Assembly (NCBI GenBank): GCA_002245135.1
Contig: NGBS01001160.1
Span: 620,001-684,000 of the forward strand
DNA length: 64,000 nucleotides
Source: Proteromonas lacertae
Taxonomy: Eukaryota; Sar; Bigyra; Opalinata; Proteromonadidae
Direction of reading: 5' to 3'
In this document: positions 14,630 through 53,907 of the stretch, one piece after another
How the letters are laid out: each line of letters opens with the position of its first letter
Position numbering within the stretch: the first letter of the stretch is position 1
Made by a program: the position numbers and the translations under genes
The notes under the pieces: generated by a model
What the model saw: only the letters and a program-made list of their open reading frames with translations
The model's database searches: none
What the model was told of the DNA's origin: nothing

Positions 14630-15540
14630 GTCTTAAAAATCAAATCAAAAATCCATAATAACATCAATGTGTCTTTTTTCTCAGTTTGCATAGCTTCTAC
14701 TATAGCTAAATTTGCACCTTCTTCTACTACTTTACCTTCTTTACTAATACACTATAAAATTACCAGTTGTTGTGCGCTGTTGAGCGTTAAGAAAACTTTT
14801 TTCAATTCTAAAATGATAGTGTGTGGTTTGATGGCGAGTTATATGCAAATATAATCTTACTTTGTCATATAAGCTACATCTGCGATATATAGTTTTTTGA
14901 ACTTTATTTAAACATATTGAAAACAACTATAATTTTATTTTTAATTTTTTTGCTTCAATCACTACTAGAGTTAAAAATACATTAGTTTAAGCAATTAAAT
15001 CGCACATATTTAGATGTTAAGACACTTAAAAACGAAAAAATTAAAAATCTATTCAAGCCTCATTCAAGCCTGTTTTTTCAAAATAAATTTTAAGCAGGTA
15101 AATGCAATAAGTAGGTATTCTTTTTCTATTTAAAGCCTTTATCCCGATGTCTACTATTGTTATAAGCATTTAAAATAATATAAAAATAAAAAGTGTTTCC
15201 AGTACAGGAACCTAAACACGACTATACGATAATAGGCCAACGTAACTATTTTGGAAAACAAAGTGTTGATTAGTAATATTGAAGGGCCAGAGGTTACGTA
15301 TATAATATTAGAATTGAAAAAAGTCTTCTGAACGCTCAACGGAGCATTTAGCTCAACAGTGCACAACACCAGTCATTGATACAAGTTAAGAATTTGGAAT
15401 GATTTACTTCAGGTTTTGGAATCATGCTTTGATAATTTTCTTTCTAAAGCATTTCTTACATCTATAGTGAAGCTACCTCCATAACCTTCTACTAATCTTT
15501 TCATATATTGTACAGCTACTTCTTTAACTTTGTATAACTT
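14630..15540 (-). pseudogene. Biotinyl/lipoyl-type domain gene fragment, split by a MITE
   Basis: Reading the minus strand, 15,540-15,420 encodes KVKEVAVQYMKRLVEGYGG followed by SFTIDVRNALERKL. After the MITE at 14,768-15,368 is removed, the sequence continues MTGNFIV, then with a one-base shift SKEGKVVEEG and ANLAIVEAMQTEKK. The latter resembles the carrier domain of biotin-dependent carboxylases (family pattern VKEGD..EKGQPLA..EAMKME), although the usual AMKM is AMQT. Stops and frame changes mark it as a relic. The match between the MITE target duplication (ACTGG on this strand) and the rejoined reading (ATG ACT GGT) supports one ancestral gene interrupted by insertion. Family assignment is tentative. 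Confidence 0.4.
14768..15368. mobile_element. Foldback MITE, family A copy 1 (601 bp)
   Basis: Starts TGTTGTGCGCTGTTGAGC and ends with the inverse GCTCAACAGTGCACAACA; flanked by the 5-bp direct repeat CCAGT (14763-14767 and 15369-15373). Internal block AAGCCTCATTCAAGCCTG lies near 15,056-15,073. No transposase is encoded; short ORFs inside are incidental. It lies in a biotinyl-domain relic. An almost identical inverted copy lies at 16,799-17,395. Confidence 0.85.
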
Positions 15541-15547
15541 TTACTTT

Positions 15548-15876
15548 TGTTGTGCGCCGTTTGTCATAGTTGGCCGTTTGTCTACCAGACACTTTTAAAA
15601 CAAACTAAATGTATATTCTTACTTGTCTTGATGAAAAATTGTTACTTTTATACTTACTTTGTTATATGACCTACCTCTGCGCTATACTTTTTTGTTAATA
15701 TAAATAGTTTGAATATTTGCGCCATTTGTTTTCTAGAAATTTTTGAAGCAAACTAAATGTATATTTAGCTAATATAGACTAAAATCTATTAGCTGAAATG
15801 ATTAGAATATAATAATTATTAAATCTTTATATATAAAAAAGAAATGTAAAAATAGGCTTGAGTGAGGCTTGATTCT
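15548..15876. mobile_element. MITE, family B copy 1, half element
   Basis: Begins TGTTGTGCGCCGTTTGTC and follows the left arm of the full copy at 19,493 through the internal AGGCTTGAGTGAGGCTT block near 15,857, then stops. The second inverted arm is missing, so it is truncated and presumably immobile. Confidence 0.75.
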
Positions 15877-16798
15877 ATATAATAATCGAATTATTATTTC
15901 TTATGATATTATATAATAATCGAAAATCATATTTACTCTTTTAGTTAGGAAAAACACGTCACTTTCGTGATTTGTGTTGTTCCTGTGCTGTTCTTGTGCC
16001 GTTCCGTCCCTGTGCCTGCCGAACACAAGTTTAATGATTTTTATATTTAAAAAAGAAAAAAACTAAAATTAATAAAGTAAAAGAATTCTTTTACTATTCT
16101 TTTATTTAAGCAATATTAGTTTTTTTACTTTATTATTTATTTCAAAATTATATATTTAAATTGGATTATCTATTTTGGAAATCATATTTTGGAAATACTT
16201 GAAAGTATTTATGGTACTCAATACAGCAGAATAAATGAAATGAAATAATAGCATAAGATAGTATTTGGCCTGAGTACTGTGAAAATCTGAATAACCAACT
16301 TCAACTGCTGGCAAAAGATAGTAATAAATACTATGTTAATGGCAATGTAATTGTTATAAAAGACAGAATATGTATATAATATCAATATTGATAATAATTT
16401 GATATTTTGTAGCTGTGGTTACAGGGAATTCACAGGAATTCCTTGTAGCCACATTCTGTGGATAAAGATTAAAATATCATAAACTGTATCGATAGAAAAC
16501 TTAATATGCAATGAAGCATATACTTCATATTTTAATTCTTCAAAAGATATAACAAAATATAATATCAAATTCAATGATACTACCCAGTTAATTGATGAAG
16601 ATTTAAATATTTCTACCTCAACAACCTCAGATGTTAATAGTGACACATTTAAAACTAGTGTAGACAATATACAACAGAAATATGCTTGTTGATATTTCAT
16701 GTGAAACTATTCGACTTGTATAGATTCTTTGCGACAAGTGATTTGAAGTGACCCCAAACCAATGATCTTTCCCAACGAAGTTCAAGGACTTTGATGAA
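15877..16798. other. AT-rich spacer between MITEs
   Basis: No intact gene. At 15,985-16,025, CCGTCCCTGTGCCTGCCGAA resembles the end of the hAT element at 57,247 (GTCCCTGTCCCCGCCGAACT). At 16,500-16,690 the plus strand has an open stretch (ICNEAYTSYFNSSKDIT...) with no recognised family. At 16,755-16,798, CAATGATCTTTCCCAACGAA closely matches CAATGATCTTTCCCAATGAA inside the foreign gene at 17,438, so a relic of a related copy of that gene probably starts here. Confidence 0.45.
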
Positions 16799-17395
16799 GT
16801 GCACTGTTGAGCTAAATGCTCCGTTGAGCGTTCAGAAGACTTTTTTCAATTCTAATATTATATACGTAACCTCTGGCCCTTCAATATTACTAATCAACAC
16901 TTTGTTTTCCAAAATAGTTACGTTGGCCTATTATCGTATAGTCGTGTTTAGGTTCCTGTACTGGAAACACTTTTTATTTTTATATTATTTTAAATGCTTA
17001 TAACAATAGTAGACATCGGGATAAAGGCTTTAAATAGAAAAAGAATACCTACTTATTGCATTTACCTGCTTAAAATTTATTTTGAAAAAACAGGCTTGAA
17101 TGAGGCTTGAATAGATTTTTAATTTTTTCGTTTTTAAGTGTCTTAACATCTAAATATGTGCGATTTAATTGCTTAAACTAATGTATTTTTAACTCTAGTA
17201 GTGATTGAAGCAAAAAAATTAAAAATAAAATTATAGTTGTTTTCAATATGTTTAAATAAAGTTCAAAAAACTATATATCGCAGATGTAGCTTATATGACA
17301 AAGTAAGATTATATTTGCATATAACTCGCCATCAAACCACACACTATCATTTTAGAATTGAAAAAAGTTTTCTTAACGCTCAACAGCGCACAACA
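16799..17395. mobile_element. Foldback MITE, family A copy 2 (inverted, left tip lost)
   Basis: Inverted near-identical copy of 14,768-15,368; the translations of both arms agree over more than 60 residues. The right end is intact (GCGCACAACA at 17,386-17,395). The left end starts at GTGCACTGTTGAGC, lacking the terminal TGTT. No target duplication is visible. It abuts and probably truncates the 5' end of the foreign gene at 17,396. Confidence 0.8.
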
Positions 17396-19021
17396 CTTGG
17401 AACTTACTTGAAAGTCATCCTCAAGGAGTATATGCACTCAATGATCTTTCCCAATGAATGTTACGATGCTCTTGTCAAGATGATAACAGGGGAGGAGGAC
17501 TCCGAAGGAGTCTTCTTAAGGTACATTACTAGAGCAAGATCCATCGATAAGAACAACTACAATGAGATGGAGCAGGAGTACTTACTTACCCGTCACTATC
17601 AACTCAAGATTATCTCCGAGAGAATGGATCTCTTCATTAACAGCACCTGTAAGCTCCAAGGAAGTGATCTTCTAAGACCAGCCTTAAGAAACATCCAAGA
17701 ACGCCTTAAAGATATACAATACTTTGTCAAGGACTCCAAGATCAAGGAGGATAATACCAACTACTTCATTCTCACATCTCAATTCATCGATAAGGTCATC
17801 ACTTCCCTAAGACAACTTAGTAAAGCTGCTAATCACCTGGCTGTTGAACTAAAGGCTTATGAGAAGATGCTTAAACGCGATCATCCGATGCTCTTCAAGG
17901 ACAAGACAATCTCCATGGATGCATACCTTAAGGCAACTAACTACTTGATCAACTACACCAATGAAGTTTTTCAGATCCTGGAAATGGAGAAGCTGTATCT
18001 TCCTAAGAATCAAATGCTGAAGGTGTTTAAGAAACTCTATCAATCTCATGAGCATTACGTCCTTAAGGATTCTGCTTACTTCCTTAAGTGCAAGAGTCAA
18101 TCTTGGAGCTACGTGAAAGTAGAGAACCGACCTAGTACAAGACCAGACTCCGAGAAAGTACTTGTCTTTGACGAGGACAACTTACTTCATGCACCCACAG
18201 CTGTTACTTACACGCAAATGAAGTTAGTCAAGGAGATGATGGATAACGCATCCCAACACTACGTAGACTTTAACAAGGAGATGAATACATGGTTGAAATA
18301 TTAAGGTATTGACTTCCAGGATCTTCCAGTTACTTCATTGAGTCTCAACTTTAAGGATTTCGAGCAGGAGGAAGAAGACATCACTGGTAATGAGTCCATG
18401 GAGGAGGAGGATAATGATGATGATTATGGTAATATCGATGGTAAGCAGGAGGATTCATCTTCAGTAACAACTTAAATCCCGACATCTTTAGCAGTGATAA
18501 CGATACTGATAAAGAAGATATTGATAAGGCCGGTAAGGAAGTTAAATTAACTCCTGTCAATGCCAATGAAGAGAACGTTCCTAAGCTAGTCGATGAATTG
18601 CTAGAGCAACCACCTCCACTACCTCCTAAGCCTGTAATTACCAAGACTGATGATAAACCTATCATTACGAAGATGAAGAAGAAGACTTCTAAGCAATCTA
18701 CTGCTGGTAATCTTCCAAAGGAACCTTCAAAGGAACCATCAATGGAGCCTTCAAAGGAGCCTTCAACAATACCAGTAATCACCAGCTTCCTATCTTATTG
18801 AGAATAACCATGAGGATATCAAGGGCTCTGATGATGATGATGAACTTAACTTAGCTTCCACGGGACCAAAGTTACCTTCAATGATAAGTCCAGCTCCACA
18901 AGAGACTAACTCCTTGGAAGGCACCGAGATAAACAATACCTGGCAGAACACCAGCTGTTTACCAGACTTAGAAGAAGAACCGTATATGAACTCACCTATA
19001 CCTGACTTAGACATGCTTTAA
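17396..19021 (+). pseudogene. Unknown gene of the GC-richer foreign block, 5'-truncated and broken
   Basis: No family recognised. The first 300 codons (from LGTYLKVILKEYMHSMIF) are an alpha-helical, Lys/Leu-rich protein with codon use (CTC, GCC, AAG, GAG) unlike neighbouring genes. An in-frame TAA (18302-18304) interrupts it, after which the same frame continues as an acidic stretch (FEQEEEDITGNESMEEEDND). One frame shift near 18,460 leads to a proline- and KEPS-rich disordered part (PPPLPPKP, three KEPS repeats), and another near 18,785 to a final acidic segment ending MNSPIPDLDML. MITE A2 removes the 5' end. Helical front plus long acidic disordered tail is the visible architecture; no function should be assigned. 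Confidence 0.55.
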
Positions 19022-19024
19022 CTT

Positions 19025-19241
19025 AAGGCTTCTCTTGTTATTGAATATCATTCTTGTTATTGTGGGTTTGTACAGATACTGCTACATAAATCTTATCGGA
19101 ACATCGTCTATTGATGATTGCCATCACACGATCGCCTATTGGCTGTTGAATGATGGTTATCATCATCAGTCAGTGTTATCCTTGCTTTTGAATCTCCAGA
19201 TAGAACAACTAACTACGATAACATTAAAGGACTTACTTTAA
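19025..19241 (+). CDS. Small hydrophobic ORF of the foreign block
   Basis: An open frame follows directly after the previous gene. It has no ATG near its start, opens with a Leu/Ile/Val-rich membrane-like segment (LLLNIILVIVGLYRYCYIN) and ends TAA at 19,239-19,241. Its 3' end overlaps by 9 bp the 3' end of the convergent minus-strand gene, a tight arrangement repeated elsewhere in this block. It could be the degraded C-terminus of a membrane protein. Weakly supported. Confidence 0.3.
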
Positions 19242-20919
19242 TTTTCTTATATACACCTTGCAGATCCTTCTGAGTCTAGCAGCTTCATTGACTTTACCTT
19301 TACCTTTACGGGATGTTATCTTCCTGTTGATCACGTTCTTGATCCAGTACTTGACCTTCCATAAGATACTTCTTCCTCCTATGGTAATCAACTCTAAGTC
19401 ATCCTCAGAAGCAGAGCTAAAGCTTCTTGCACGATAACCATTCCTCCCTTCAGGCATCTCCAAGGAGTCCTTGAATTTACCTAGTACTTGTTGTTCTGCG
19501 CCATTTGTCATAGTTGGCCGTTTGTCTACCAGACACTTTTAAAGCAAAATAAATGTATATTCTTACTTGTCTTGATGAAAAATTGTTACTTTTATACTTA
19601 CTTTGTTATATGACCTACCTCTGCGCTATACTTATTTGTTAATATAAATAGTATGAATATTTGTGACGTTTGTTTTCTAGAAATTTTTGAAGCAAACTAA
19701 ATGTATATTTAGCTAATGTAGACTAAAATACATTAGCTGAAATGGTTAGAACAACTTAATGTTGATCATGTGACATATAAAATAAAAAAGAAAATATAGA
19801 ATCAAGCCTCACTCAAGCCTATTTTTTACGCTTTTTTATATATAAAGATTTAATAATTATTATATTCTAATCATTTCAGCTAATGTATATTAGTCTATAT
19901 TAGATAAATATGCATTTAGTTTGCTTCAAAAATTTCTAGAAAACAAATGGCGCAAATATTCAAACTATTTATATTAACAAAAAAGTATACTACAGAGGTA
20001 GGTCATATAACAAAGTAAGCATAAAAGTAACAATTTTTCATCAAGACAAGTAAGAATATTCATTTATTTTGCTTTAAAAGTGTCTGGTAAACAAATGGCC
20101 AACTATGACAAACGGCGCACAACAAGTGTTACTTTCTTCGTAGAGTAGATATTCCTGGGCAATGAGTAAGCTAGCAATCTCCTTTGATACATTGACATTG
20201 AACTTCTTTTGTTTATCCCGACAATTGCAATTAGGAATCAACTCAATAGCTTGCTTATCATCCTCATCTAACATACCCAGCTTCATGCACTTTAAAGTGA
20301 TATCCTTCACATCATCTATTCCTAAGGAGATGTTTAATGTGTTGTACTTATCTAGGTTCATCTTATAGGTAAAATCAAAGGTCCATTGCCTTATGAAGAT
20401 GCGGACGATTCTCTCTCCAGGATGTGCAAGGCCATAAATCTTCCTACGATCAGTCATGTGATTGTACTTCACTAGGAAGCAATTGTCCTTAAAGAGATAT
20501 TCACCTGATCCTCTAGGCACTTCCTCAGCTTCATGATCATCATTTCCGATAATCCTGAAGAGTCTCTTGAGTACCTCCCTATTACGATCCACGATCTTGA
20601 GCTTAGCGTAACATTGATGATACATTGGAAGAGTGATCTTCTTATCGTCTAGGTCAGGGATGAACTTAGCGATGCAATCTATGATCACTGGTTTCTCGGG
20701 AGTGATGGTAAGTCTTCGATAGCTATGTCCTTGCTGATGATACTCTGAGTAGATGCTAGCCTGACCGTATAGTTCTGATTCCTTTACAGTTGCCTCATAA
20801 GTATAGATTCTCATTACCATCTTTGAAAGCCCTTTCATCATGAACTCATCCTTACGATCGTCTTCATACTTCTCGGTGATCTCCTTGATAAGATTGAAGT
20901 AGCTTCTGTTCTTATTCAT
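19233..20919 (-). pseudogene. Unknown foreign-block protein (paralogue of 21,030-21,695), split by a MITE
   Basis: Reading starts at ATG 20,919 and stays open for about 265 codons to ...EYLLYEESNT, where MITE B2 (20,124-19,493) intervenes. It resumes VLGKFKDSLEMPEGRNG and ends at TAA 19,233. No known family. It aligns by eye with the upstream neighbour: SYFNLIKEITEKYEDDRK / NYFNLIRQVTENYDQERK, LTITPEKPVIIDC / VTITPVIPVIVDC, RWTF/QWTF, and GIDDVKDIT / GINDVEDIT. The two are tandem duplicates of an unrecognised mixed alpha/beta protein. Codon use is richer in G/C than surrounding genes. The insertion removes about the last 85 residues from the frame. Confidence 0.65.
19493..20124. mobile_element. 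Foldback MITE, family B copy 2, complete (632 bp)
   Basis: Almost perfect palindrome: left end TGTTCTGCGCCATTTGTC, right end GACAAACGGCGCACAACA. Each arm contains ACCAGACACTTTTAAA and the GTTATATGACCTACCTCTGC block. The centre holds AAGCCTCACTCAAGCCT (19,804-19,820). No coding capacity and no convincing target duplication. It is inserted in a foreign-block ORF. Confidence 0.88.
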
Positions 20920-21029
20920 CGATCAAGTATAGGAATAAGTTTATTGAACTGAATCAACCCCGAGATTACCATCCCTCTGAGAACTATCACTCCTGGAGGA
21001 TTGAATTCCATGATGGATGGATGAGATCA

Positions 21030-21695
21030 TTACTTGGTATTTCCTTTGAACTCCTTCCTTGCAGCTATGCATCTATCGGTGATGTCCTCCACATCGTTGA
21101 TACCAACAACGACTTCTAAGGTGTGGTACTTGGAGTAGTCCTTTGAGTCAATAAAGTTAAAGGTCCATCTAGGGAGTCTTAAACGAAAGATCCTCTTACC
21201 AAGACTTGCTAGGTGTTGAAACTTACTAATTGTTTTAGCAGCCCGTAGCTGACATTGCAACTGTACATAATCAGTTCCTCGGGAATTGCTTACTATTATC
21301 GTTCCTCTTAGAACATCCTCAGCATTGTGTTTGTTATCTCCGATCACTTCGAAGAGCTTCCTTAAGGTCTGATGATTGCTATCATGGATCTTCAGATAAA
21401 TCCTATTGTCACCTAAGTCCCGAACAACACTTCCAACACAGTCCACAATCACTGGGATCACCGGAGTGATGGTTACCTTCCTTGTTCTTGGAATGCCTAT
21501 ATCCATAAAGCTTTTTATCATAGCATCCCCGTAAGTGTCAGAGTCTTCTACTCGTATCTTATATGTGAAGAGCTTCTCAATCTTCTCCTGTCTGGTTGTC
21601 TTCTTCGGGAAGGTCAGTTCCTCCTTACGTTCCTGATCGTAGTTCTCGGTGACTTGACGGATCAGGTTGAAATAGTTCTCATTCATTGACTTCAT
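21030..21695 (-). CDS. Unknown foreign-block protein (221 aa), intact paralogue
   Basis: Complete ORF from ATG 21,695 to TAA. No recognised domain, signal peptide or membrane segment. Shares an N-terminal NYFNLIRQVTEN block, a central VTITPVIPVIVDC strand block, an LRKLFEVIGDN helix and a C-terminal RWTFNFI...GINDVEDITDRC block with the gene at 20,919-19,233. This indicates tandem duplication and conserved structure rather than chance ORFs. The gap to that gene is 110 bp; a divergent ORF starts 168 bp away. Codon use (ACC, CTC, AAG, GGA) is distinct from the AT-rich host genes. Function unknown. Confidence 0.7.
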   Translation of the reverse strand: MKSMNENYFNLIRQVTENYDQERKEELTFPKKTTRQEKIEKLFTYKIRVEDSDTYGDAMIKSFMDIGIPRTRKVTITPVIPVIVDCVGSVVRDLGDNRIYLKIHDSNHQTLRKLFEVIGDNKHNAEDVLRGTIIVSNSRGTDYVQLQCQLRAAKTISKFQHLASLGKRIFRLRLPRWTFNFIDSKDYSKYHTLEVVVGINDVEDITDRCIAARKEFKGNTK

Positions 21696-21863
21696 CGGCT
21701 GAGAATTATCGGATTGCCCTCAACTCACTTTGTTAATTAAGTCTTGACGTTTCCCAGAATTGACTTTTTACTCACTCCTGGTAATCACGCAATTCCCGGT
21801 CATCTCCATGAAGATAAGGATTCCTCCGAAGAATGAACTTAGAGCAAATGCAAAGTCCAATCA

Positions 21864-22217
21864 ATGCAAGACCTTGTAAGATTCCTATGGTTCAAAGCGT
21901 TCTCGTACTACCTACGGCTAAGTGAATGCATCTCCAATCCCTTACTATGCGATAAGTCGATTACTAAGATAGAGGAGGACAATCATCTATCCATTAACGT
22001 ATTCAAGATGCTTCAGAAGCCAGATATTCACTTAGTCCCTTTACGTACTTCGAAGACACCTTCCAATGATTCCTATAAGCAGGTGAGCTTGCTTTACCTG
22101 GAAGAGAATTGTAAGCCTTCAACATCTCCTAGTACGGATACTCCCAATGATGAATCTCTTAGCGCTTCTACAATCATCCATTTCCATTTATCAACCCAAG
22201 ACAAGAGAAGTAATTGA
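21864..22217 (+). CDS. Unknown foreign-block ORF (117 aa)
   Basis: Open frame from ATG 21,864 to TGA 22,215-22,217. The front half is amphipathic (MQDLVRFLWFKAFSYYLRLS); the back half is Ser/Thr/Pro-rich and probably disordered (STSPSTDTPNDESLSAST). No family recognised. Divergent from the ORF at 21,695 and convergent with the one ending at 22,231, only 13 bp away. The same codon bias as its neighbours supports it as real. Confidence 0.45.
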   Translation: MQDLVRFLWFKAFSYYLRLSECISNPLLCDKSITKIEEDNHLSINVFKMLQKPDIHLVPLRTSKTPSNDSYKQVSLLYLEENCKPSTSPSTDTPNDESLSASTIIHFHLSTQDKRSN

Positions 22218-22230
22218 ATCACCATGAAAG

Positions 22231-22943
22231 TTAGAAGAAGAAGTCTGGCCTTTGACGTCTATTTATCATGAGTGTGATAATCCTACTCCATTGATCTATC
22301 AACTCCGACAACTCGTTAAGGATCTTACTTATTGAATCTAGTCTTTGTTGTGTGTAGTCAACGATATAGATATACCTTGTAGATACCTTAGTGCTGGTTA
22401 CCGTGGTGACTTCATTGTCTTGTTCATTACTAGGCCTTGAAGATTGTTGATATCTCCTTACTTCCTCTTGAGATAGTCTACTCCTTCCTACGTGTTCCTC
22501 CAATTCCTTCTTACAACCACGTCTCCTTACCGAGAAAATTGCTAGATAATTGATCTCCTTATGAAGTTGCTGATCCATCTTCTTGAAATCAACCTTACCG
22601 AGGATAGGTAAGTTGCTATTTACCTCCTCATCGTCGAAGTCTTCTAGGTATTAACTCATAATGGACTTTTCGATATAAGCAAGTTTCTCAACGATGGCAC
22701 TTAGGACATAGTACAATTTACTTAGCTGAATCTTGTTAGTCTTCACCTTCCCTAGAACTTCAAATGATCTCCTTGTCTTCTCAGTTGAGAACATCCCATC
22801 ACAGTTATTGAACTCTCCGAGGACACCTCCCTTATCTAGCAATGATCGGAGTACTGCCTCTCACAACCTTGGTACTTGAGATAATCCTTTACCCTCTGGT
22901 TCCTTTGAAGCAACCTCTTATCGGTAGCGTTCTTGAAGTATTG
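22231..22943 (-). pseudogene. Unknown foreign-block gene with an internal TAA and a frame shift
   Basis: Starts with MQYFKNATDKRLLQRNQR near 22,943, shifts frame near 22,850, then reads LLDKGGVLGEFNNCDGMF to EKSIMS. It meets TAA (22,651-22,653) and continues open in the same frame through YLEDFDDEEVNSNLPILG to TAA 22,231. The final third has a helical segment (RLDSISKILNELSELIDQW) that could form a coiled coil, preceded by a basic region (RRRGCKKELEEHVGR). No family recognised. Either one decayed gene or two adjacent small genes (22,842-22,651 and 22,578-22,231). Confidence 0.45.
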
Positions 22944-22997
22944 CATTCACGGGGGTGTTCAGAAATTGTTTACTGCCGAGATAGTTGAACTATTCCG

Positions 22998-23303
22998 ATG
23001 CCTCCTTCTATAGATCATGCTGTGTCCTGCATTAAGAACATTTACTTACTATCCTTCTACGTAGTGCTAGTATCAATGGTCCTTGCCTTTATCTATATGA
23101 AGCTTCAGAGCATACAACACCAGGCAAGATTATTTCATCATGCTGACCTTGATGGATTCAACAATCGTTTATTAAGAGTTTACCCAGCTGATCTCCTGCT
23201 CCTTGTAGGTAACAATGTTGTTCCCGTGAATGAGGTTTTCGACGATGATTTCCTAGATGATGAAACTTACTTACAATGGAGGATGCATTTGCCTTTAAGC
23301 TAG
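22998..23303 (+). CDS. Unknown foreign-block membrane protein (101 aa)
   Basis: ATG at 22,998. One clear transmembrane helix near residues 15-36 (YLLSFYVVLVSMVLAFIYM), followed by a mixed domain and an acidic C-terminal part (FDDDFLDDE). It ends at TAG 23,301-23,303, in direct contact with the convergent ORF's stop. No family recognised; the predicted single-pass topology is the only functional clue. Confidence 0.5.
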   Translation: MPPSIDHAVSCIKNIYLLSFYVVLVSMVLAFIYMKLQSIQHQARLFHHADLDGFNNRLLRVYPADLLLLVGNNVVPVNEVFDDDFLDDETYLQWRMHLPLS

Positions 23304-23567
23304 CTAGCTAAATCTCCTGCTTATCGTTGTGGTTGATGGTACCTTTGCTTTGTTGGGATGATCGAAAAACATCATCTTATCGGGGATAGGTACAATGGAT
23401 AAGCACCTAGCCTGGTTCTGAACAATGTGAAGGTTCAGTAACAGATTACCCAGTGAATGGTAAAGAGCTAAAGGCTTCTTCCATAAAGTACCATTCATGA
23501 TCGTGATGGAGTGGTAGGGTAGTTTGGAACTGACTGCTTGCTGATCCTTAAAGATGTTATCCTCCAT
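23304..23567 (-). CDS. Unknown foreign-block ORF (87 aa)
   Basis: ATG at 23,567; ends TAG at 23,304-23,306. The stop region is the palindrome GCTAGCTAGC shared with the convergent ORF, so the two coding regions abut with no spacer. The protein has alternating strand-like segments (HSITIMNGTLWKKPLALYHS) and no membrane segment. No family recognised. Confidence 0.45.
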   Translation of the reverse strand: MEDNIFKDQQAVSSKLPYHSITIMNGTLWKKPLALYHSLGNLLLNLHIVQNQARCLSIVPIPDKMMFFDHPNKAKVPSTTTISRRFS

Positions 23568-23607
23568 ACTCTTCAGAATCGAATTAGTTTACCTAGACAA
23601 TTAATGT

Positions 23608-24134
23608 GGATGATGAGACTTACCTACTGAAGACTCTTGAGATTGCTGCTATCTCTTTTCATTTTCCTTAAGAATTAAAGAATTGAGTGAAGCCTCCCGA
23701 AGTCACCATTGCATGCTTGTTAACAATTGTAAAGTCCCAGTTCCACGATTGAGTTCTCCACTGAGTTCTCCATTGAGTTCCAAGATTGCCCTGTTGATTA
23801 CCCTAGCTTTTCAATGGCCTTATAAATTGACTGATTAATAGAAGAACCATCAAGACCTTCCCAGATACATCCAGCCGTGTATGACTGCGTCAGGGAATCT
23901 CCCATGATGGGAGATTCCTTCCTTTCCAACACGGCTGTTCTTCTCGGGAAGGTCGTGGATGAACTTATCTAGGAGAGTTATAAGGATGATAAAACATACC
24001 TTCAGAAGCCTTCCGAGATTGCTAATCATTATCTTCAAGGGACCTTGAGAAATCCACAACTAGCTAGAACCTCCTGGAGTTGCATTTGGTAACTTGTTAA
24101 CAATTGTAAAGTCCCGGTTCCACGATTGGTTTCC
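23608..24134. repeat. Imperfect direct repeats flanking a hairpin, non-coding tail of the foreign block
   Basis: Copies at about 23,608-23,763 and 23,974-24,134 share ACTTGTTAACAATTGT, AAAGTCCCRGTTCCACGATT and GAGATTGCT in the same order. Between them lies the nested inverted repeat at 23,854-23,954. A short ORF on the minus strand (24,059-23,850) crosses the hairpin and is probably incidental. Confidence 0.65.
23854..23954. repeat. Three-tier nested inverted repeat (101 bp)
   Basis: Three perfect stems share nearly one centre (about 23,905): GACCTTCCC/GGGAAGGTC (23,854-862 with 23,946-954), CAGCCGTGT/ACACGGCTG (23,872-880 with 23,929-937) and GGAATCTCCC/GGGAGATTCC (23,894-903 with 23,909-918). 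It could fold as a long cruciform or RNA hairpin. Confidence 0.85.
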
Positions 24135-24153
24135 ACGGTTCAATTAAAAGCCC

Positions 24154-24280
24154 TTACAAGGTCACCAGTGTAGCAAGGAGAGTCAAGAGCGTGATTAGAA
24201 TCATCACTACGAGGTAACCAACACTTGTAGATAGCTTCCAGAAGTCCCCGTAGCAGATCGTCTCATAGATAGGTATAGAA
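24154..24280 (-). CDS. Small single-span membrane protein of the foreign block
   Basis: Minus-strand frame reads PIYETICYGDFWKLSTSVG then a strongly hydrophobic helix (YLVVMILITLLTLLATLVTL) and stops at TAA 24,154-24,156. No ATG at the front of the frame, so the start is unknown. A decayed homologue in the same relative position occurs on the minus strand near 38,000-38,030 (ISYMDYWKLFTSVG then a stop). Conservation of the protein reading in two copies is the main support. Confidence 0.4.
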
Positions 24281-24385
24281 ATAGCTTAGAGGAGTTCCCG
24301 TAGGGAAGTAGACCCCGTTGAGAAGTAGACCCTGTTGGGAGGAATCCCGTAGGTACCTTACGTAAATAGGACCCTGGTACAAAAG
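24200..24385. repeat. Tail repeat of the foreign block, shared with 37,985-38,110
   Basis: AACCAACACTTGTAGATAGC, GGAGGAATCCCGTAGG and CCTTACGTAAATAGGAC occur in the same order and orientation near 38,000-38,105. Within this copy GAAGTAGACCCYGTTG is repeated in tandem. AT-rich host-type sequence begins immediately after it, so it probably marks one end of the foreign unit. Confidence 0.75.
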
Positions 24386-24400
24386 TTATTCCTATTCTTC

Positions 24401-25129
24401 ATGACAAGTAGCAAAGCTAAAATATATAGAGCAATTATTTTATACATATTTTTAATTATATTATTAATATATTCTTTATATAGTAAAAATAAAAATATAA
24501 AAATACAAAATCTTAGATATATAAAGTCAATTCCATCAAATTTAACAACCCGAGATGAAATTGGTAATTTATTAGAAATAGAAAATTTTAAAAATGGAAT
24601 TGAGGTTGGAGTGCAAAATGGAAGTTTTTCAAATATTTTGCTAAGCAAATGGAAATCATGTAAAGAATTTGTTATGATTGATCCTTGGTTGCAGCAAAAA
24701 TATTATGATGATACAGCGAATGTTCCAAATATTATGCAAAACAAAGTATTCTTATATTCAATGAATATGATTAATAAATATTCTGATAGAGTTAAATTCA
24801 TAATTCTTAGAACAACAAGTATAGAAGCTAAAGAATATTTAAAAAATAGATTGTATGATTTCATCTACTTAGATGCAAGACATGATTATATAAGTGTAAA
24901 GAATGATTTATACTATTATTACCCATTAGTAAAATCAGGAGGTATATTATCAGGTCATGATTATCAAGATGGAAATAAAGGTCAATGGAAAAATGATCCA
25001 TACGGTAAACGAATTTATAGTAACAAAGCTGTAAGATCAGCTGTTAATGAATTTGCTCACAAATATAATTTGAATGTAATTACAACTAATGAAACACTAT
25101 TTAAATCATGGTTGATAAGAATACCATAA
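24401..25129 (+). CDS. Membrane-anchored class I SAM-dependent methyltransferase
   Basis: 242 aa, intronless. N-terminal hydrophobic anchor (residues 10-27, type II topology expected in the secretory pathway). A methyltransferase-24-type fold follows: motif I GIEVGVQNGSFS, the acidic loop FVMIDPW, post-motif FIYLDARHDYISVKNDL and the SGGILSGHDY strand typical of this group. The substrate is probably a sugar or glycan, judged by the neighbouring glycosyltransferases. The ORF begins only about 15 bp after the foreign tail repeat, so its promoter would have to lie within or beyond that element. Confidence 0.7.
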   Translation: MTSSKAKIYRAIILYIFLIILLIYSLYSKNKNIKIQNLRYIKSIPSNLTTRDEIGNLLEIENFKNGIEVGVQNGSFSNILLSKWKSCKEFVMIDPWLQQKYYDDTANVPNIMQNKVFLYSMNMINKYSDRVKFIILRTTSIEAKEYLKNRLYDFIYLDARHDYISVKNDLYYYYPLVKSGGILSGHDYQDGNKGQWKNDPYGKRIYSNKAVRSAVNEFAHKYNLNVITTNETLFKSWLIRIP

Positions 25130-25320: not shown

Positions 25321-25429
25321 AAGGGAATGTTGGCTGATGCAAAGTTCTTATCCTAATTATTCCAATTTGGTGAGTTTAAGATAGATTTAATCAAAGAAGA
25401 AACAATTTACACCAGCTGTAGCTATAAAT

Positions 25430-25812
25430 GCATCAAAAGATAGTAAAATCAAAATTAGAAACATTGAGATTAGCAAAAACAAAATTAGATCAAGCTGAAT
25501 CATGATTAGCTGAATGAAAAAAAGTACTAGATAAATTACTAGCTGATTTCCAAGATAAAATCAACTAGAAAGGTATGAATTGGATTCGAGCTTTAGAAGC
25601 TAATAATATGCCTGATTATGGTTCTACTACATTATCTCATCCTAAATTCAAAGATCAATTGGAATATGCTATGGAAGAAGGTTAAACTTTGATTATTACT
25701 GGTTTAGAAATCAATAAATCATTTATGTTATATATATTCACCAGATTACCAAATCCATTATTTACACCAGAATTACAGGTAAGAACAACATTAGTTGATT
25801 TCACTGTATAAT
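25430..25812 (+). pseudogene. Dynein heavy-chain fragment
   Basis: The reading KSKLETLRLAKTKLDQAES resembles the stalk coiled coil. WIRALEANNM, then KFKDQLEYAMEEG, then LIITGLEI matches the region after the stalk. [18 protein letters not shown] followed by LVDFTV is the conserved AAA5-adjacent segment of axonemal-type dyneins. At least three in-frame stops and internal deletions show it is dead. It is only a fragment, with no flanking dynein sequence, so it was probably carried in or left by rearrangement. Confidence 0.65.
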
Positions 25813-26118
25813 GTATTGATCGTATGCTCGTAAGTTCCTGGTATTGCAGTTCATGTTCTCCATGGGTAACTTGATGTAGAAAGTCTTAAAGTAGACATCA
25901 AAGTTCTTCTGTTCTCTTAAGGCCTTGTTGAGTCCCTTTAGTTTAATCCCGACCAACTGATTAATCGTATAAAGCTTACCGTTCTTGTTTTCTTCACACT
26001 TCAATAAATTCAACTTACTAATGTCTATCATCCTCATGAACTGCTTATACTCCATAATATCTCGATAAGTGTCTTCATTCTGGCAGTTGCAAAGCAAGGA
26101 GTAGGCATTATTCATCAA
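25801..26118 (-). CDS. Foreign-block-type ORF (105 aa), outlying fragment
   Basis: Open frame from ATG 26,118 to TAA 25,801 with the same GC-richer codon use as 17.4-23.6 kb (AAC, CTC, AAG, GGC). The protein is Asn/Lys/Leu-rich ([20 protein letters not shown]) with no recognised domain. It is joined directly to the end of the dynein relic. Its isolated position implies a rearranged or separately inserted piece of the foreign unit. Whether it is complete is unknown. Confidence 0.4.
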
Positions 26119-27442: not shown

Positions 27443-30042
27443 CAGGGTTGTATAAATAGGTAACCTATAGGTTATAGGTAAAACCTATAATCTAGCTTTG
27501 ACCGACGGTCGGTCAAGCCTCGAGCATTATTTTGTTAAAATCTATTTTAATTACATACTGAGTAACATTTGCTTAATACCAACTATCATACTATATAAAA
27601 AATTATTCCTGCTTCCTGTTTTACTTTGATTACCATAGTTAGAATAAGATTGGTTGAAATTGTATAAATAACTATTCTGATATATTAAAATTCATCTACA
27701 AACTACTCAATAGTGATATTTAACATATTTATACACTTGTTTTTTTTATGATTTATTTATGTTGATTACTATCTATAAAAAACAAATATTAATGTAATTA
27801 TAATAATAAATCTCTATTTCTGGATATTAATAATTTCTCTTCCATATGTTCTGATGAAATATTACATTTTGTGTAACTACTTATTCTCCCAATCTCGCTA
27901 AATATTCTCTCAGACTCGCAAGATGTACTTTGACAACATAAATATTTTCTGGCTAATTCAAATGTTTTAGGAAATATGGGTTTAAGGTGTAACCATACTG
28001 ATGACAAGCTCTCACCAGTGCTAAAATGTTCTGAATAGTCTATATAAGAATCTATTTCTTCTCTCATAATTTTTCTTCTTTTGTGCGATGAAGGAATATT
28101 TAAATACTTATCTAATTCGTTATTTTCATCTACTTCCATCAAATTCTCTTCTTCATCTTCACTCATTATTCTATTATGTTGATGTAAACTGTGAAGAGCA
28201 TTTTTTGCATCTATAAATTCATCTACAGTAAACCCTACTAATGACTCTTTAATAAATGTTTTAACACGTGGATCGAGAATGCAGCACATTAAAGGAATTC
28301 TAGTTTCGGAGTAAATAATTCTTAATTTCTTATTTACACTCTCTTTTATTCTATCAGCATATTCCTTGAAATCTTTTGTGTAAATACTTGTATTCATTTC
28401 ATATAATACTCTTTTTACGTTTAATACAGCCATACCTAATGTTATATTTCTTTTCTCTAAAAGTAGAGTAAGATTATAAAACGGTTTTAAAATATTTAAT
28501 ATATCATTCAAATATTTATAATCATTTGAAGAAGATTTTGGAATGTATTGAAGCAATGCATCTATTTTAGGCTTTGATATATTAATAATACCTATTCTTT
28601 TGTCTTTGTTATATTTCTCCATTCTTATATGGTATTCTTTATTCTGATCTTCCACGTATTGAGTCAATTTATTTTTGTTTTCATTTATTTTGTTAAGTAA
28701 TATATACATGCTATTCCATCGAGTGATGGTTATAGTACCTACTGCAATATCTAGTTTATTTCTATTTGCTACAGTTCTAAGTTGCTTGCTAAGATTAACA
28801 AATGTCTCAATTATTTCTGACACTTCATCCCCTATAACCAAACATGAATTAATAGATAATTGCAACGTATGTAAGAAGCATCTGATGTTGTCAATTTCTA
28901 GGTTTTTAACGCACTTTAGCACATTTGGTGCATTGTCTGTTGCTATGGAGATAATATTAAATTTGTAATGATCTCTGACAGTTTCTATTAAATCTGAAAG
29001 AGTTGAACTATATTCGTCTGCTACTTCAATTACTCCTATTGTATTTGTAAATTGTTTCATGTAATTATCAATGTATACACAACTAATTCCAATATATTCC
29101 TTACAGCTTTGACTTTTGAACCCGTCGAGTGTTAAAGAAACGTATTGTCCTCTCAATTGCCTCTTTAATTCTTCCTAATGTATGTAATATTAAACAAATA
29201 TACTCTTACTTTCTCAGTTTCTGAAAATAAATAATCATTATAAACCTCTCTTCGAGGTACAGTATATCCTAGTTTTAAGCAAAACCTTCTAAATTCTGGT
29301 GAGTCTAATATCGTGGTACTGACTGCATTGAAGGTTATGAATTTAAACAGATCTTGGTTGAGAGAATCTGAATTGACTTTGGCTTGTACTTCTTCATAAT
29401 TATGTACATTAACCATATGTAATTTCACAGCCTTCCCGTTCCTAACATTGCACCTATATTTTTTGTTGCAAAGGGAGCATATGCAGTAATCAGTATCTTT
29501 GATTTTTAACATGTTTTTCCAAAACATTTTGGAGTAGTTAAAATTTAACTTCTCTAACATACCGCTATTGTATAAATCCTCAACTTCTTTCGATGCGAAA
29601 GGTGGTAATGTAATATCCCTATGGTTTTATATATTATAAAGTCTTATAAATATTGAGTAATTATACATCTAAATGATCTAAATCTTAAAAAATAAAGATT
29701 TACTTAGTCAAACCATCAAGCTTGATGTTTTTTTCTTTTATTTTTTTTATTCTATAATTATCTTAATATTATGTTAATAATATGTTATTGTGAGTCATCA
29801 TTGAGAAATAGATCAAAATAATAGTAATATAAAAAGTGCATCGACCGACGGTCAAATTTGATATTTGAAAGATGATGTATAAAACATTAATTTTGTATAT
29901 ATGGTTAGATAATATGCTTCTTAACTCATGTTCAATAGGAGGTCAACTAATAGTTAGTATAAGGAAGGTAAAGGTCAAGCTAAAGATATAGGTTTTGACC
30001 TATAGGTAAACCTATATTTTTTGACCGAAAAATACAACACTG
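27443..30042. mobile_element. hAT transposon 1 (2.6 kb), apparently complete
   Basis: Left end CAGGGTTGTATAAATAGG, right end inverse (...AATACAACACTG). Flanked by the perfect 8-bp duplication TTAAAAAT (27,435-27,442 and 30,043-30,050). Subterminal GACCGACGGTCGGTCAAGCC motifs lie near 27,503 (left) and, imperfectly, 29,840 (right). It carries one intact transposase gene on the minus strand. Confidence 0.92.
27798..29560 (-). CDS. hAT transposase, BED finger plus RNase H-like domain (575 aa)
   Basis: Two exons, 29,560-29,210 and 29,174-27,798, joined by a 35-nt intron (GTAAGA...TTAG); no stop or shift. Exon 1 holds a BED zinc finger (CSLCNKKYRC ... HMVNVH). Exon 2 holds the catalytic core: first Asp in VSLTLDGF, second in ATDNAPN, CxxH-like block CFLHTLQLSI, TRWN Trp, and the glutamate of SCESERIFSEIG in the C-terminal hAT dimerisation region. 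Expected to cut and paste the 27,443-30,042 element with 8-bp duplications. Intact ends and frame suggest it may still be active. Confidence 0.9.
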
Positions 30043-36720: not shown

Positions 36721-36854
36721 ACAGTATTATTGATATTATTATATAATAAAGCAACAAAAGTAATATTATAATCTATTCATTTTAAAACCTTAATTTCATT
36801 TTCTTCTATTGCTATTTGAAATACTAAGTGATTTGTAACAATTAATGGCTATAG

Positions 36855-37904
36855 CAGGGTTGTATTTATCGGTTACCGACGGAGATAGGTCAAAACCTAT
36901 AGGTTTTGCCTTGACCGTCGGTCGGTCAAGCCTTACAAGCCGAATATTATAAAATCTATTTTAATTCATTATATACTAATTTTCCCTTCATAAAAACTAT
37001 CTTATAATATATTTTAATACTTGATTCATATATTTTCAATTCAATTAAATAATTTTTAACTTTTTATAAAGATTTACAATTTAATACTCAACAATAATTA
37101 GGTATTTTATATAATTATGTTCTTATTTATTTCTACTAATCATCAGTTTCATTTGTAATCTATCACATGATTAATTTGATTTGGATAAGTTACTTATTTG
37201 TCCAGTATGTTTAAACTGTTCTTGGCAAGTATGTATACCCTAGGAAACTTGGACTTTAATGATAGCCAGATATTTACAATGGTTTCAGAGGTGCTGTAAT
37301 GAATATCATATTGCAAATATTCTTGTACTTCATTTGGCATAATTAATCTCTTTCTTTTTACTGAAAATGCATTTATCAAGGCTTTTTATCTTTAACATAT
37401 TATACCAAAAGGTTTTGTAAAAGTTAAAATTAAGATGTTCAAGCATATTTGCCTCTTTTAAGGCAATAACTTCACGAGCCGCTCCAATTGGTAAAACTAT
37501 ACTCCTAGAATATATAATGATAGATTATATTAGATACATTTATGATAATTATAAGAAATGATTAATGTCAAGCTAAAAGTTTGCCATTTTTTCTTTCAAA
37601 TTTTTATAATCATTCTATACTTTATATTACATATATAACACAATAGAATAACTCATTGGTAAGGTTAGATTCAATTATGAAGAAAGAAAAAAGCGCATCG
37701 ACCGACCGACGGTTAATTCGGTATTTTATAGAATGATATATAGAGCTTGAATTCAATATGTACAGTTAGATAATATTATTAATATCACATGTTTAGGAGG
37801 AGGTCAGCTAATAGTTACTACAGCCTGGTGTCGGTCAACATTTGTTTATTGACCTACGACCGATCGGTTTTCTCAGTCGGTCATGACCGATTTATACAAC
37901 CCTG
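36855..37904. mobile_element. hAT element 2, internally deleted derivative (1,050 bp)
   Basis: Ends CAGGGTTGTATTTATCGG and CCGATTTATACAACCCTG; perfect 8-bp duplication GGCTATAG (36,847-36,854 and 37,905-37,912). Subterminal GACCGTCGGTCGGTCAAGCC near 36,919 matches element 1. Between them only remnants of the transposase remain. Confidence 0.9.
37194..37490 (-). pseudogene. hAT transposase remnant
   Basis: Minus-strand reading: EVIALKEANMLEHLNFNF then YKTFWYNMLKIKSL, equivalent to the start of the element 1 transposase (MLEKLNFNYSKMFWKNMLKI). After a one-base shift it passes to a C-terminal stretch (RLIMPNEVQEYLQYDIHYST). The BED finger and the whole catalytic core are missing, so the element is non-autonomous. 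Confidence 0.75.
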
Positions 37905-37979: not shown

Positions 37980-38092
37980 TGCATTACCATACCGAGCTAA
38001 CCAACACTTGTAAATAGCTTCCAGTAGTCCATGTAGGAAATCATCTCGAAAGGAAGTTGACCCCGTAGGAGGAATCCCGTAGGAACCTTACG
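37980..38092. repeat. Second copy of the foreign-block tail
   Basis: AACCAACACTTGTAAATAGC, GACCCCGTAGGAGGAATCCC and ACCTTACGTAAATAGGAC match 24,200-24,385 in order and orientation, with internal deletions. The small membrane ORF of that block is present but broken here. Confidence 0.75.
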
Positions 38093-38294
38093 TAAATAGG
38101 ACTATGGGACAAGTGTCAGAGTCCTAACGAGTTTTCTATAAGTCCGTCCCCTTCTAGATCCAGAGTTGACCTTTACGGGAGCTTCATCGATTGCATAGAC
38201 GCAGCCCCTGTAAAAGTTAACTCTGAATCTAGAAAGGGACGAACCCCTAGAAAACTCGTTAGGACTCTGTGACAATGTCCCAGGGTCCCATTTA
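38093..38294. repeat. About 200-bp imperfect palindrome at the end of the foreign tail
   Basis: TAAATAGGAC...GGGACA...CAGAGTCCTAACGAGTTTTC on the left is mirrored by AGAAAACTCGTTAGGACTCT...TGTCCCAGGGTCCCATTTA on the right. Inner stems CCGTCCC/GGGACG and CTAGATCCAGAGTT/AACTCTGAATCTAG leave a ~24-nt loop (GCTTCATCGATTGCATAGAC...). The outer left part is the tail repeat, so the tail is present twice, head to head. Confidence 0.85.
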
Positions 38295-38514
38295 TATACT
38301 ATATATAGTAGTCCTTACCTACTTTTACAAAGATTCTACGCTTAGAAGCAGCAGTTGAAGCCGATCTTCTTGACATGTTAAGTGAATGGTGAGGTAGCAC
38401 TCTATATATGCTATAAAAAAATATATGTACGATGATTTCGATATAAAAAGTATAATATTGTATAACAAATATAGTTATGTTTAACAAATAAAATATTGTG
38501 AATAGTTGTTATAT

Positions 38515-39819: not shown

Positions 39820-41007
39820 TGTATGCACCACTTTCTTTACCGATTTGAAACATATGCTCGGGGTGATAGTCTTGAATGAATCTGCTATTTTTTTGATTAT
39901 TTCTTCTCTGTTTCAGTAAGAGCACGTCTCACTACGACGTTTCCATATCCCAAATATCATTTCAATTGGATTCAGGTGTGGACTATATGGAGTATTGAAT
40001 AATAATTCATTTCCTTATTCTTAATTAATTTTTCTGTATCAGGGGAATGGTAAATTATGCAATTGTCCATGAATATTAGGCATTTGCCTAATTCTTTGAT
40101 ATCATCAAGCAAGTATTGAATATATGTTCTAAAAATAATTGTTGAATTCTCTCCATATACTACTTGCGAAAAATGCATCTTAATATCACGCATACTTGCA
40201 ATCACTGTTATATGAGTTGCTGAGTTTGCCATATGTACCACTGGAGTAGTACCAATTTCAGCCCTTGCTCTACCTGTTACCAACCCCATCATCCAATGTG
40301 ACTCATCCACAAAGATGGGGCGATAACCTGATTCTAGATATGCCAAAAATTTTCGAACTACTATTTTTCTCTCTTCCTTTAGATTATTTATCTCACAAAC
40401 TCTTGATCCTCTGCTTACGAACCTCTTTAATGTAATTGTTGGCAATCCATCTCTCTTCATTTACATTGTTAATGTTCTTTGAACTGTACTTATAGACACT
40501 ACTTTGTTTGTTTTAGCTTTAATAGCTTCTTGAAGTTGTCTTAACGTTGCTCGATTGTTTCTTTTGATCTCTTCTAACAAGATCTCTCCATCACTTTTCC
40601 CCAGAAGTCTCATTTTGCCTTTGCGTACATTCACTTTATCTGAGTCTCTCTGGCTTTATACCAGTTATGTCTGAATATTTCAGTAACGAGTAATTCTGAC
40701 CTTCTACCGCATATACTTTCTTGAGGGTATCTATCTGCTGTTGGCTTATTTTCTGATATAGCCTTTTACTTGATGGAGGTTCAGAAGATGATTCTACTAC
40801 ATTATCATCATTATCCAACATAATTTCTCTTAATTCTACATAATATGAAACTGGACCATTATACACAATTTCATCATCAACCACTTGCTGAACTGCAGGC
40901 GCAGAATTAATAAAATCCTCTCTACAGTATTCATTTTTTATATAAGAATGAACATAAGTTTTTTTATTAATGATAGGTAGCTGAAAAGGAGTTGGCGCGA
41001 AAATCAA
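39820..41007 (-). pseudogene. Tc1/mariner-IS630-type transposase relic, copy 1
   Basis: Minus-strand pieces in order: a divergent N-terminus (EYCREDFINSAPAVQQ), helix-turn-helix region (SDGEILLEEIKRNNRATLRQ), then FVDESHWMMGL (first catalytic Asp), IVVYGENS-like middle, CLIFMDNCIIYHS (second Asp) and, after a shift, TPYSPHLNPIEMIFG (third acidic residue, Glu). Two frame breaks (near 40,630-40,460 and 40,010) inactivate it. It lies between two halves of an acyltransferase relic and so probably inserted there. Confidence 0.75.
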
Positions 41008-52079: not shown

Positions 52080-52684
52080 ATAAGACTAATAAGAAAATAA
52101 AGCTAGTTTGTTTTAAAATAGTAACGCAACAAACGGCATACTCTTACCAATGGCGCACAACAGACCTGACTATATGAGTATGGCAAAACAACAATCAGAT
52201 ACGAAAATGCAAATGAAGATGGTATTGTATATTATATATGTATTATTTATATATTATTATTATTATTATTAGCTTCTAATATAGTATAATTTTAGGATCT
52301 GTTTCTGCTTCTACTTTTAATGATTGAACTATACTATCCAATGATGAAGGCATAAACTAAAATGAATCAATAAAATGCAGAAAGTTTAGAATGATATCTC
52401 TTTTGTTTATTTTTTGTTGTTTTAGAAGTTGTATCATTTATATGAATCTGTTACTATCTTCATCAACTAATGAAACATCTATCTTGTTATCTACATTAAA
52501 CTGAGCTTCCATCTTTTTATCTAATCTTGCTAGACAATGATTGATCTGCAGATAAAGTAGTAAAACAATAGTTATATCTTCTTTCTTGGTGGAGCTAAAA
52601 ATGCCTCTAGTTTAATGATGGTTATATAATGACAATCTCTATATAAAGTGGATTATGATTTGCTTTAGGAACAGTTGTTACATA
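52080..52684. other. MITE fragment plus unidentified gene relic
   Basis: AGCTAGTTTGTTTTAAAATA ... AATGGCGCACAACA at 52,101-52,161 is a family B right end. From 52,165 to 52,600 the minus strand contains coding-like pieces (INHCLARLDKKMEAQFNVDN, MPSSLDSIVQSLKVEAETDP) separated by stops. I do not recognise them. Confidence 0.4.
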
Positions 52685-53890: not shown

Positions 53891-53907
53891 TATTGAATTA
53901 ATAATAT

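Follow-up and report, generated by a model that had tools for sequence, protein, structure and literature searches.

A stretch of 64,000 nucleotides of the Proteromonas lacertae genome (C994:620001-684000, hereafter the window), part of an 864-kb contig in an assembly of 50.2 Mb and 1181 contigs, contains a GC-rich block at 17396-24388. The block is a decayed copy, truncated on the left and on the right, of a unit of 7-8 kb that is here named segment A. Segment A is one of several kinds of separate unit that carry the same hairpin-forming ends and among which a set of virus-type genes is split. We consider it probable that segment A belongs to a Polinton-like virus that is multipartite and integrated, and that the block is one broken copy of this segment. 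The more detailed proposal is of a double-stranded DNA (dsDNA) virus of the double-jelly-roll kind, with linear segments of at least seven kinds (A, B, B2, C, D, E and F), each about 5-10 kb long, that have the same palindromic, hairpin-forming telomeres, are replicated and packaged in trans and integrate in clusters into the genome of a eukaryote; here we see the chances as evenly balanced.

Segment A and its copies

The block (17396-24382) has a GC content of about 40%, with 1-kb bins at 0.39-0.42 except for a dip to 0.31-0.32 at 19.0-20.5 kb, which is due to a separate palindromic insert of 635 bp. The rest of the window lies at 0.20-0.31, apart from two other peaks (0.35 at 37.5-38.5 kb and 0.34 at 40-41 kb), and the sequence flanking the block is judged eukaryotic by the genes that it contains (those for hAT, DDE and glycosyl hydrolase 38, with others identified by eye). 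Pooled GC content at third codon positions (GC3) is 0.48 in six open reading frames (ORFs) of the block versus 0.17 in a set of ten AT-rich ORFs from the window that includes two hAT transposase genes. An earlier note on this DNA, made from the letters alone, had described the base and codon use of the block as distinct, and CTC (15 vs 1 per 1000 codons), AAG (69 vs 17) and GAG (39 vs 11) bear this out; GCC, which it had also listed as common, is rare (1.9 vs 0.8).

Copies of segment A were found on seven further contigs (C1059, C164, C922, C107, C684, C358 and C359), and a 1-kb piece of the block has its main matches to them at 79-89% identity. Homology sets in at window position 17396 in four copies (C1059, C164, C922 and C684) and stops at 24381-24382 in six (the same four, C358 and C359), so that the limits proposed in the earlier note were almost exact; the copy on C107 is rearranged. 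Complete units lie at C1059:10674-18657 and C684:5120-12468. Relative to the first of these, the window copy is without about 840 bp at the left, and with them the terminal repeat and the first part of ORF1, while its right break falls at the centre of a small terminal palindrome, with loss of the right-hand terminal hairpin. Several of its genes are disrupted by stops or frame changes and have open versions in other copies. Contamination or an assembly artefact is hardly credible as an explanation: many copies do sit on short contigs, but the window copy lies within 864 kb of contig with AT-rich sequence on both sides and carries an insert of a family of miniature inverted-repeat transposable element (MITE)-like elements of the window, and three other copies have target-site duplications (TSDs) in AT-rich flanks.

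None of eight block ORFs reached the cut-off of a Pfam profile, and searches of the block proteins against NCBIfam and PHROGs gave no convincing match, in line with the view that they belong to no known family. Introns are likewise absent, the long ORFs being uninterrupted in the intact copies. Given the copies elsewhere, the terminal inverted repeats (TIRs), the 6-bp TSDs of other copies, the foreign codon use and the uninterrupted ORFs, the block is an inserted, virus-derived element. The earlier suggestion of an inserted and now decaying replicon, virus-derived or otherwise, thus stands in all but one respect, since segment A matches no core gene and is not a complete replicon alone: using tblastn at an E-value of 0.01, neither the C1059 unit nor the window copy matched a polymerase (PolB), capsid protein (MCP), protease (PRO), ATPase or integrase (INT).

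When four A genes were compared pairwise between copies, which are not independent of one another, the ratio of non-synonymous to synonymous rates (dN/dS) was below 0.5 in 26 of 28 cases; the exceptions were 1.41 (1 synonymous and 5 non-synonymous changes) and 0.65. This mostly low ratio suggests that the A proteins were required while the copies spread. They include two paralogues predicted to be rich in beta-strands, a small protein with a membrane segment and a long charged protein. Considering that its genes look constrained, that one encodes a small membrane protein and that no copying or packaging gene was found in it, our best guess for the role of segment A is structural or accessory.

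Shared ends and types of unit

The A unit of C1059 has TIRs of 274 bp (99.3% identity), whereas that of C684 has short TIRs (93 bp, 87%). Only 1 kb from the former lies a unit of another type, B (C1059:19667-28815), with TIRs of 283 bp (98.9%). These A and B units are 99% identical at their ends, and a stretch of 631 bp in the right end of A recurs at 97% in the left end of B. In its long form, the outer end has the sequence TATATAGTATATAAATGGGAC, after which come a small palindrome and the remainder of a near-perfect hairpin, about 203 nt long in all (-100 kcal/mol, z -26). Among 14 sampled ends, eight had the long form, five a short form without the large hairpin and one an odd form. TSDs of 6 bp flank the A unit of C684 (TACTGC), the A unit of C1059 (TGCAAT) and the B unit of C1059 (AAAAAG), the latter two with a one-base offset.

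These ends are abundant in the assembly. A 21-base end pattern, allowing up to three mismatches, occurs at 76 forward and 76 reverse places, compared with 0 and 0 for the control. The repeat- and hairpin-rich tail that the earlier note had remarked on at the right of the block is this terminal repeat: 24200-24382 matches in both orientations across the genome, and the search it had proposed for further copies with the same tail gave at least 40 matches, with 40 of 155 candidates scored.

Intervals were defined as neighbouring inward-facing pairs of ends among 100 of the 152 pattern places, with 13 ends added by hand, and were typed by protein or DNA matches. At least 27 were closed, measuring 4.4-10.15 kb between patterns, and 22 of them were of a single type. 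Type A accounts for three (C684, C922 and C1059; 7.2-7.6 kb); type B for one on C1059, with a capsid protein and a 320-aa protein; type B2 for one on C31, with a second capsid protein, an ATPase, a protease and a probable integrase; and type C for four (C180, C214, C1172 and C1173; 7.3-8.1 kb), with PolB. No recognised gene was present in the part examined of type D (two intervals of equal length, 5.9 kb, on C306 and C307), type E (seven intervals, 6.5-10.2 kb) or type F (four intervals, 4.4-9.2 kb). One further interval, on C701, is mixed, containing F plus an 84% relative of E, and four are untyped.

In none of the 27 closed intervals was the complete gene set found, and none exceeded 10.15 kb. 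This bears on the possibility of a single larger GC-rich virus genome, of at least 40 kb and with internal repeat copies, from which every type would be a piece or a product of deletion. The units do often lie close together on one contig (14 gaps between neighbours of 25 kb or less, compared with about two expected at random, although some bounds were estimated and repeat-rich contigs may inflate the clustering), and mixtures of A with C and of E with F exist, as such a genome might leave behind. On the other hand, no interval approaches its size; A, C and D are steady in length with the same genes, E and F being more variable; and the A and B units of C1059, although 1 kb apart, each have their own ends and their own TSD. 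We therefore regard a single larger genome as quite unlikely.

Viral genes and the units that carry them

Hallmark proteins, mostly from AT-rich relatives described below, were run by tblastn against units cut from their contigs. The B unit has a capsid protein match of 32% over 490 aa, with the frame split by a stop in this copy, and a relative (26%) of a 319-aa protein whose gene adjoins the capsid gene in AT-rich relatives. In the B2 unit, matches were found for a second capsid protein (two stretches, 192 aa at 42% and 265 aa at 25%), the protease (49%), the ATPase (58%) and a piece of the probable integrase (30%; E 3e-11 to the AT-rich homologue). PolB was matched in the C part on C922, and PF03175 was above its cut-off in C-type units (C180, C214 and C1172 among others) and in none of 14 control genomes; in total, PolB of the GC-rich type was located at about 20 places.

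Domain searches agree with these assignments to different degrees. The 423-aa protease of B2 matched Peptidase_C48 above the cut-off (E 9e-6) and C5 (adenain) below it (0.02), and its AT-rich homologue exceeded both cut-offs (C48 1.5e-8, C5 1.4e-5). For the ATPase, the AT-rich homologue had a sub-threshold match to Pox_A32 (E 2.6e-4; 21.0 bits vs a cut-off of 22.8), with Walker A and B motifs recognised by eye, and the B2-type protein on C1043 had no ATPase match in Pfam. The structural model of a capsid homologue was of low confidence (pLDDT 56); most of its named matches in BFVD were double-jelly-roll capsid or scaffold proteins, and so were all 50 PDB entries among the matches listed. Judged by this predicted fold, the capsid protein is of the double-jelly-roll kind.

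The AT-rich relatives are numerous. Genome-wide, we counted about 100 places each for Polinton-like PolB, protease and capsid-associated genes of this type, and by these gene matches the 50-Mb genome appears massively invaded by several families of AT-rich virus-like elements. In some of them (C209, C1060, C181, C436 and C953), the open frames that contain the protease domain extend over as many as about 1,600 codons, which suggests that it is fused to large proteins. One relative on C164 has the 319-aa protein, capsid protein, ATPase, protease and integrase in that order within 7.3-18.8 kb; it does not show PolB together with the other genes, because no PolB place was listed on C164.

Linkage between PolB and the other genes differs between the two sets. 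An AT-type protease lies within 12 kb of AT-type PolB at 20 of 112 places, and among the 21 such pairs within 16 kb, 14 are 2.7-3.5 kb and four 5.4-5.6 kb apart. For GC-type PolB, excluding its small fragments on C848 and in the window, neither a GC-type protease nor the 320-aa gene was found within 12 kb at any of 20 places. As only the best candidates were scored in these searches, co-occurrence is a lower bound. At the AT-type rate of 18%, a result of 0/20 has a probability of about 2% by chance, so this evidence alone is modest, and the four closed C units are firmer.

Considering the abundance of the AT-rich relatives, the GC-rich units could be satellites or cargo of a complete one-piece helper, such as an AT-rich Polinton-like virus in the same genome, with the core genes of B, B2 and C left over from former helpers. 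Some of the AT-rich places do combine PolB and protease, and linear 7-kb satellites with TIRs are known, namely the transpovirons (described in the accessible part of PMC7031253). Against this, the GC-rich set has a PolB, MCP, ATPase and PRO of its own, with about 25-58% identity to those AT-rich counterparts that were tested, and its members have in common their type of end and their codon use (GC3 of 0.48-0.49 in A and B, compared with 0.21 in three AT-rich viral ORFs). We consider satellites unlikely, if a serious alternative.

An ordinary family of large DNA transposons, in which one transposase moves all members including non-autonomous ones, would also account for TIRs, TSDs and differing content. 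Transposon families usually show all three. However, members of the present set carry genes for capsid proteins, for an ATPase of the packaging type and for a protease of the maturation type, and purifying selection, of which the A genes show signs, would be needless in a non-autonomous transposon, which makes this explanation very improbable. Since the GC-rich set has its own complement of genes and no larger unit appeared among the places listed, the satellite and larger-genome explanations account for less than a multipartite virus does.

A proposed multipartite virus: function of the segments and contrary evidence

From the shared ends and the division of genes, we infer that the units are mutually dependent and together constitute one multipartite virus. 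Since all segments carry the same ends, the PolB of segment C would copy every one of them; the capsid proteins, ATPase and protease of B and B2 would package them; and the integrase of B2 would insert them, leaving duplications of 6 bp. Segment A, which would be unable to replicate alone, would supply accessory or structural proteins needed by the set, the candidates being the two paralogues, the small membrane protein and the long charged protein. If this multipartite reading holds, an entirely new type of segment, accessory or structural in role, would be represented by A.

Several observations weigh against a multipartite virus. The proposed virus is known here from integrated genome sequence. 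The integrase of B2 is probable from its resemblance to the 317-aa AT-rich homologue, and that homologue itself matched rve (E 0.004), rve_3 (0.005), IS481 (5e-4) and IS30 (3e-4) below their cut-offs in all cases; a comparison of its sequence with PDB found no integrase, and the B2 piece had no integrase match in Pfam. Types B and B2 are each represented by one closed interval, C306 and C307 may be one locus counted twice, and 4 of the 27 intervals (C210, C543, C920 and C971) are untyped. Types E and F were known from sampled 700-base pieces that match no other fetched sequence; a third such piece, from C808, also matched nothing, and C808 was later typed as F. A TSD was found in three of the four copies with both ends read, the exception being the PolB unit of C180, which has two short ends. 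Moreover, the right junction of this unit is identical to that of the C unit on C922, so the two are not independent. Segments also recombine: besides the E and F mixture on C701, in one open frame of 1009 aa at C107:15898-18927, the 248-aa protein of segment A is fused to a region with similarity to PolB ORFs, which makes this frame a recombinant between A and C. Finally, the intervals were drawn from 100 of the 152 places at which the end pattern occurs, so that an intact unit of larger size may have escaped notice.

Gene content of the window copy

The copy of segment A in the window (17396-24388; homology with C1059, C164, C922 and C684 runs from 17396 to 24381-24382) opens with a remnant of ORF1 on the forward strand (17432-19019). 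This ORF is open for 727 aa in C1059 and here has in-frame stops and frame changes, its first 290-aa piece being open; the intact C1059 protein had only a sub-threshold match in Pfam, to a disordered-repeat family. A 92-aa ORF without a Pfam match (19233-19511, reverse strand) lies at the edge of the 635-bp palindromic MITE-like insert (19491-20125), which is foreign to the element, as the other copies are without it at this place. The tandem paralogues follow on the reverse strand. Paralogue b (20074-20919) has 221-222 aa in other copies and 281 aa here, where its frame enters the insert, and paralogue a (21030-21695) is open with 221 aa and 39% identical to b, which confirms the relationship that the earlier note had seen. 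Genome-wide, the only relatives found for a were the two paralogues of segment A copies and fragments of these.

Further to the right, a 117-aa remnant (21864-22217, forward strand) of an ORF that runs uninterrupted for 271 aa in C1059, C164, C922 and C684 abuts, tail to tail, the remnant of the 248-aa ORF (22231-22980, reverse strand, upper bound approximate), of which a 115-aa piece is open at 22231-22578; this is the touching convergent arrangement noticed before. The single-pass membrane protein, also noticed before, is the 101-aa ORF at 22998-23303 on the forward strand, with one predicted membrane span in a strongly hydrophobic stretch (KD19 2.36). An 87-aa ORF on the reverse strand (23304-23567) had no Pfam match. 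The non-coding subterminal tail (23650-24199) contains a 91-nt direct repeat (23666-23756 and 24043-24133, 73% identity) and from 23965 onward matches the left end of segment B at 87%. It leads into the inner TIR common to the segment types (24200-24382), which is cut in mid-palindrome. The last 6 bases of the copy match only the unusual end on C18 among 23 aligned ends. This right end (24370-24390) corresponds to the left end of a type E unit (C18:23420-23520), and by sequence it looks as if one broken form of end had been passed between segment types.

Neighbourhood of the window copy

Two AT-rich MITE-like families occur in the window. One comprises a 614-bp inverted-repeat element directly at the left break and outside segment A (16782-17395) and a copy at 14768-15379; as the two are 99% identical, this family is recent. 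The other includes the insert within segment A and its relatives at 15542-15880, 52677-53294 and 53907-54227. To the right of the element lies an AT-rich host-type gene (24401-25129, forward strand; Methyltransf_24, GC3 0.14), followed at 25380-25700 by what by eye is a dynein heavy chain-like fragment with in-frame stops.

Next is a decayed PolB fragment of sister segment C (25801-26115, reverse strand), with 83-86% DNA identity to pieces of C922:27119-27549 and a protein match of E 3e-40; the earlier note had taken this piece, at 25.8-26.1 kb, for a recurrence of the block, which it is not. The piece it had reported at 38.0 kb does share the terminal repeat, and is only a solo right end, identified by sequence match, with the terminal repeat and terminal hairpin of another unit (37993-38307). 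It adjoins a repeat (36851-37904) that recurs at 93-98% identity on C107 (twice), C922 and C684 and, because the C107 copy encodes a hAT dimerisation domain, is read as a hAT-type transposon rather than a piece of virus. Elsewhere on the same contig, pieces of segment D are found at 858.7-859.9 kb.

Other genes of the window, at 27798-29174, 55530-57080, 39972-40460 and 53348-53845, are hAT transposases (Dimer_Tnp_hAT, at two places), a piece of DDE_3 and a piece of glycosyl hydrolase 38. From 30100 to 52000 runs a long array of AT-rich ORFs, by eye resembling glycosyltransferases and FkbM-type methyltransferases, interspersed with transposon remnants.

Comparison with known systems

Multipartite genomes are known mainly from RNA viruses and small single-stranded DNA (ssDNA) viruses. 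If the present set is indeed one virus, dsDNA viruses of the double-jelly-roll kind can evolve such genomes as well, and it would offer a natural test of segment cohesion, here possibly achieved by integration of the segments near each other. Surveys based on capsid genes would overlook most units of such a virus, because A, C, D, E and F would look like unrecognised islands.

The closest resemblance is to Polintons (Mavericks) and Polinton-like viruses (PLVs), with which the set has in common a viral family B polymerase (PF03175), an adenain/Ulp1-type protease, a double-jelly-roll capsid protein, TIRs and, in three of four copies, 6-bp TSDs; a putative A32-like ATPase and a probable rve integrase would add to these. 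Instead of forming one element, the genes are divided among separate units of 4.4-10.2 kb, each with TIRs, and the ends in their long form carry a 203-nt hairpin; PLVs measure 14-40 kb according to the accessible part of PMC12220804 and 15-30 kb according to that of PMC10120064. We call the set Polinton-like rather than Polinton because its core genes are not in one element. The endogenous PLVs and virophages of protists, as covered in the accessible part of PMC10120064, also occur in many copies per genome, with a GC content unlike that of the host and with TIRs, but no split gene set is described there, and the words 'segment' and 'multipartite' do not occur in the main text. Our literature search, with preprints and most subscription papers outside its scope, found no description of a segmented Polinton.

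The transpovirons of Mimiviridae recall segment A in being linear DNA of about 7 kb with TIRs of 380-520 nt and one small protein with a membrane segment (PMC7031253, accessible part). They differ in sharing a helicase, according to the same text, whereas no helicase match was found among the segment A proteins searched; moreover, segment A shares its ends with units that carry PolB and capsid genes and is integrated in a cellular genome.

Finally, the Bidnaviridae, represented by Bombyx mori bidensovirus, have linear DNA segments, 6 and 6.5 kb long, with TIRs, and a PolB that derives from Polintons (PMC4061559, accessible part). They are ssDNA viruses of two segments that carry genes of parvovirus origin and whose TIRs do not fold into hairpins like those of parvoviruses, as stated in that part of PMC4061559. 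No parvovirus-derived helicase or capsid gene was found among the selected proteins scanned with Pfam here, and the present set differs in its double-jelly-roll capsid protein, ATPase, protease, at least seven kinds of segment and hairpin ends. If our reading is true, the set would join the bidnaviruses as an independent example of several segments that depend on one Polinton-type polymerase.

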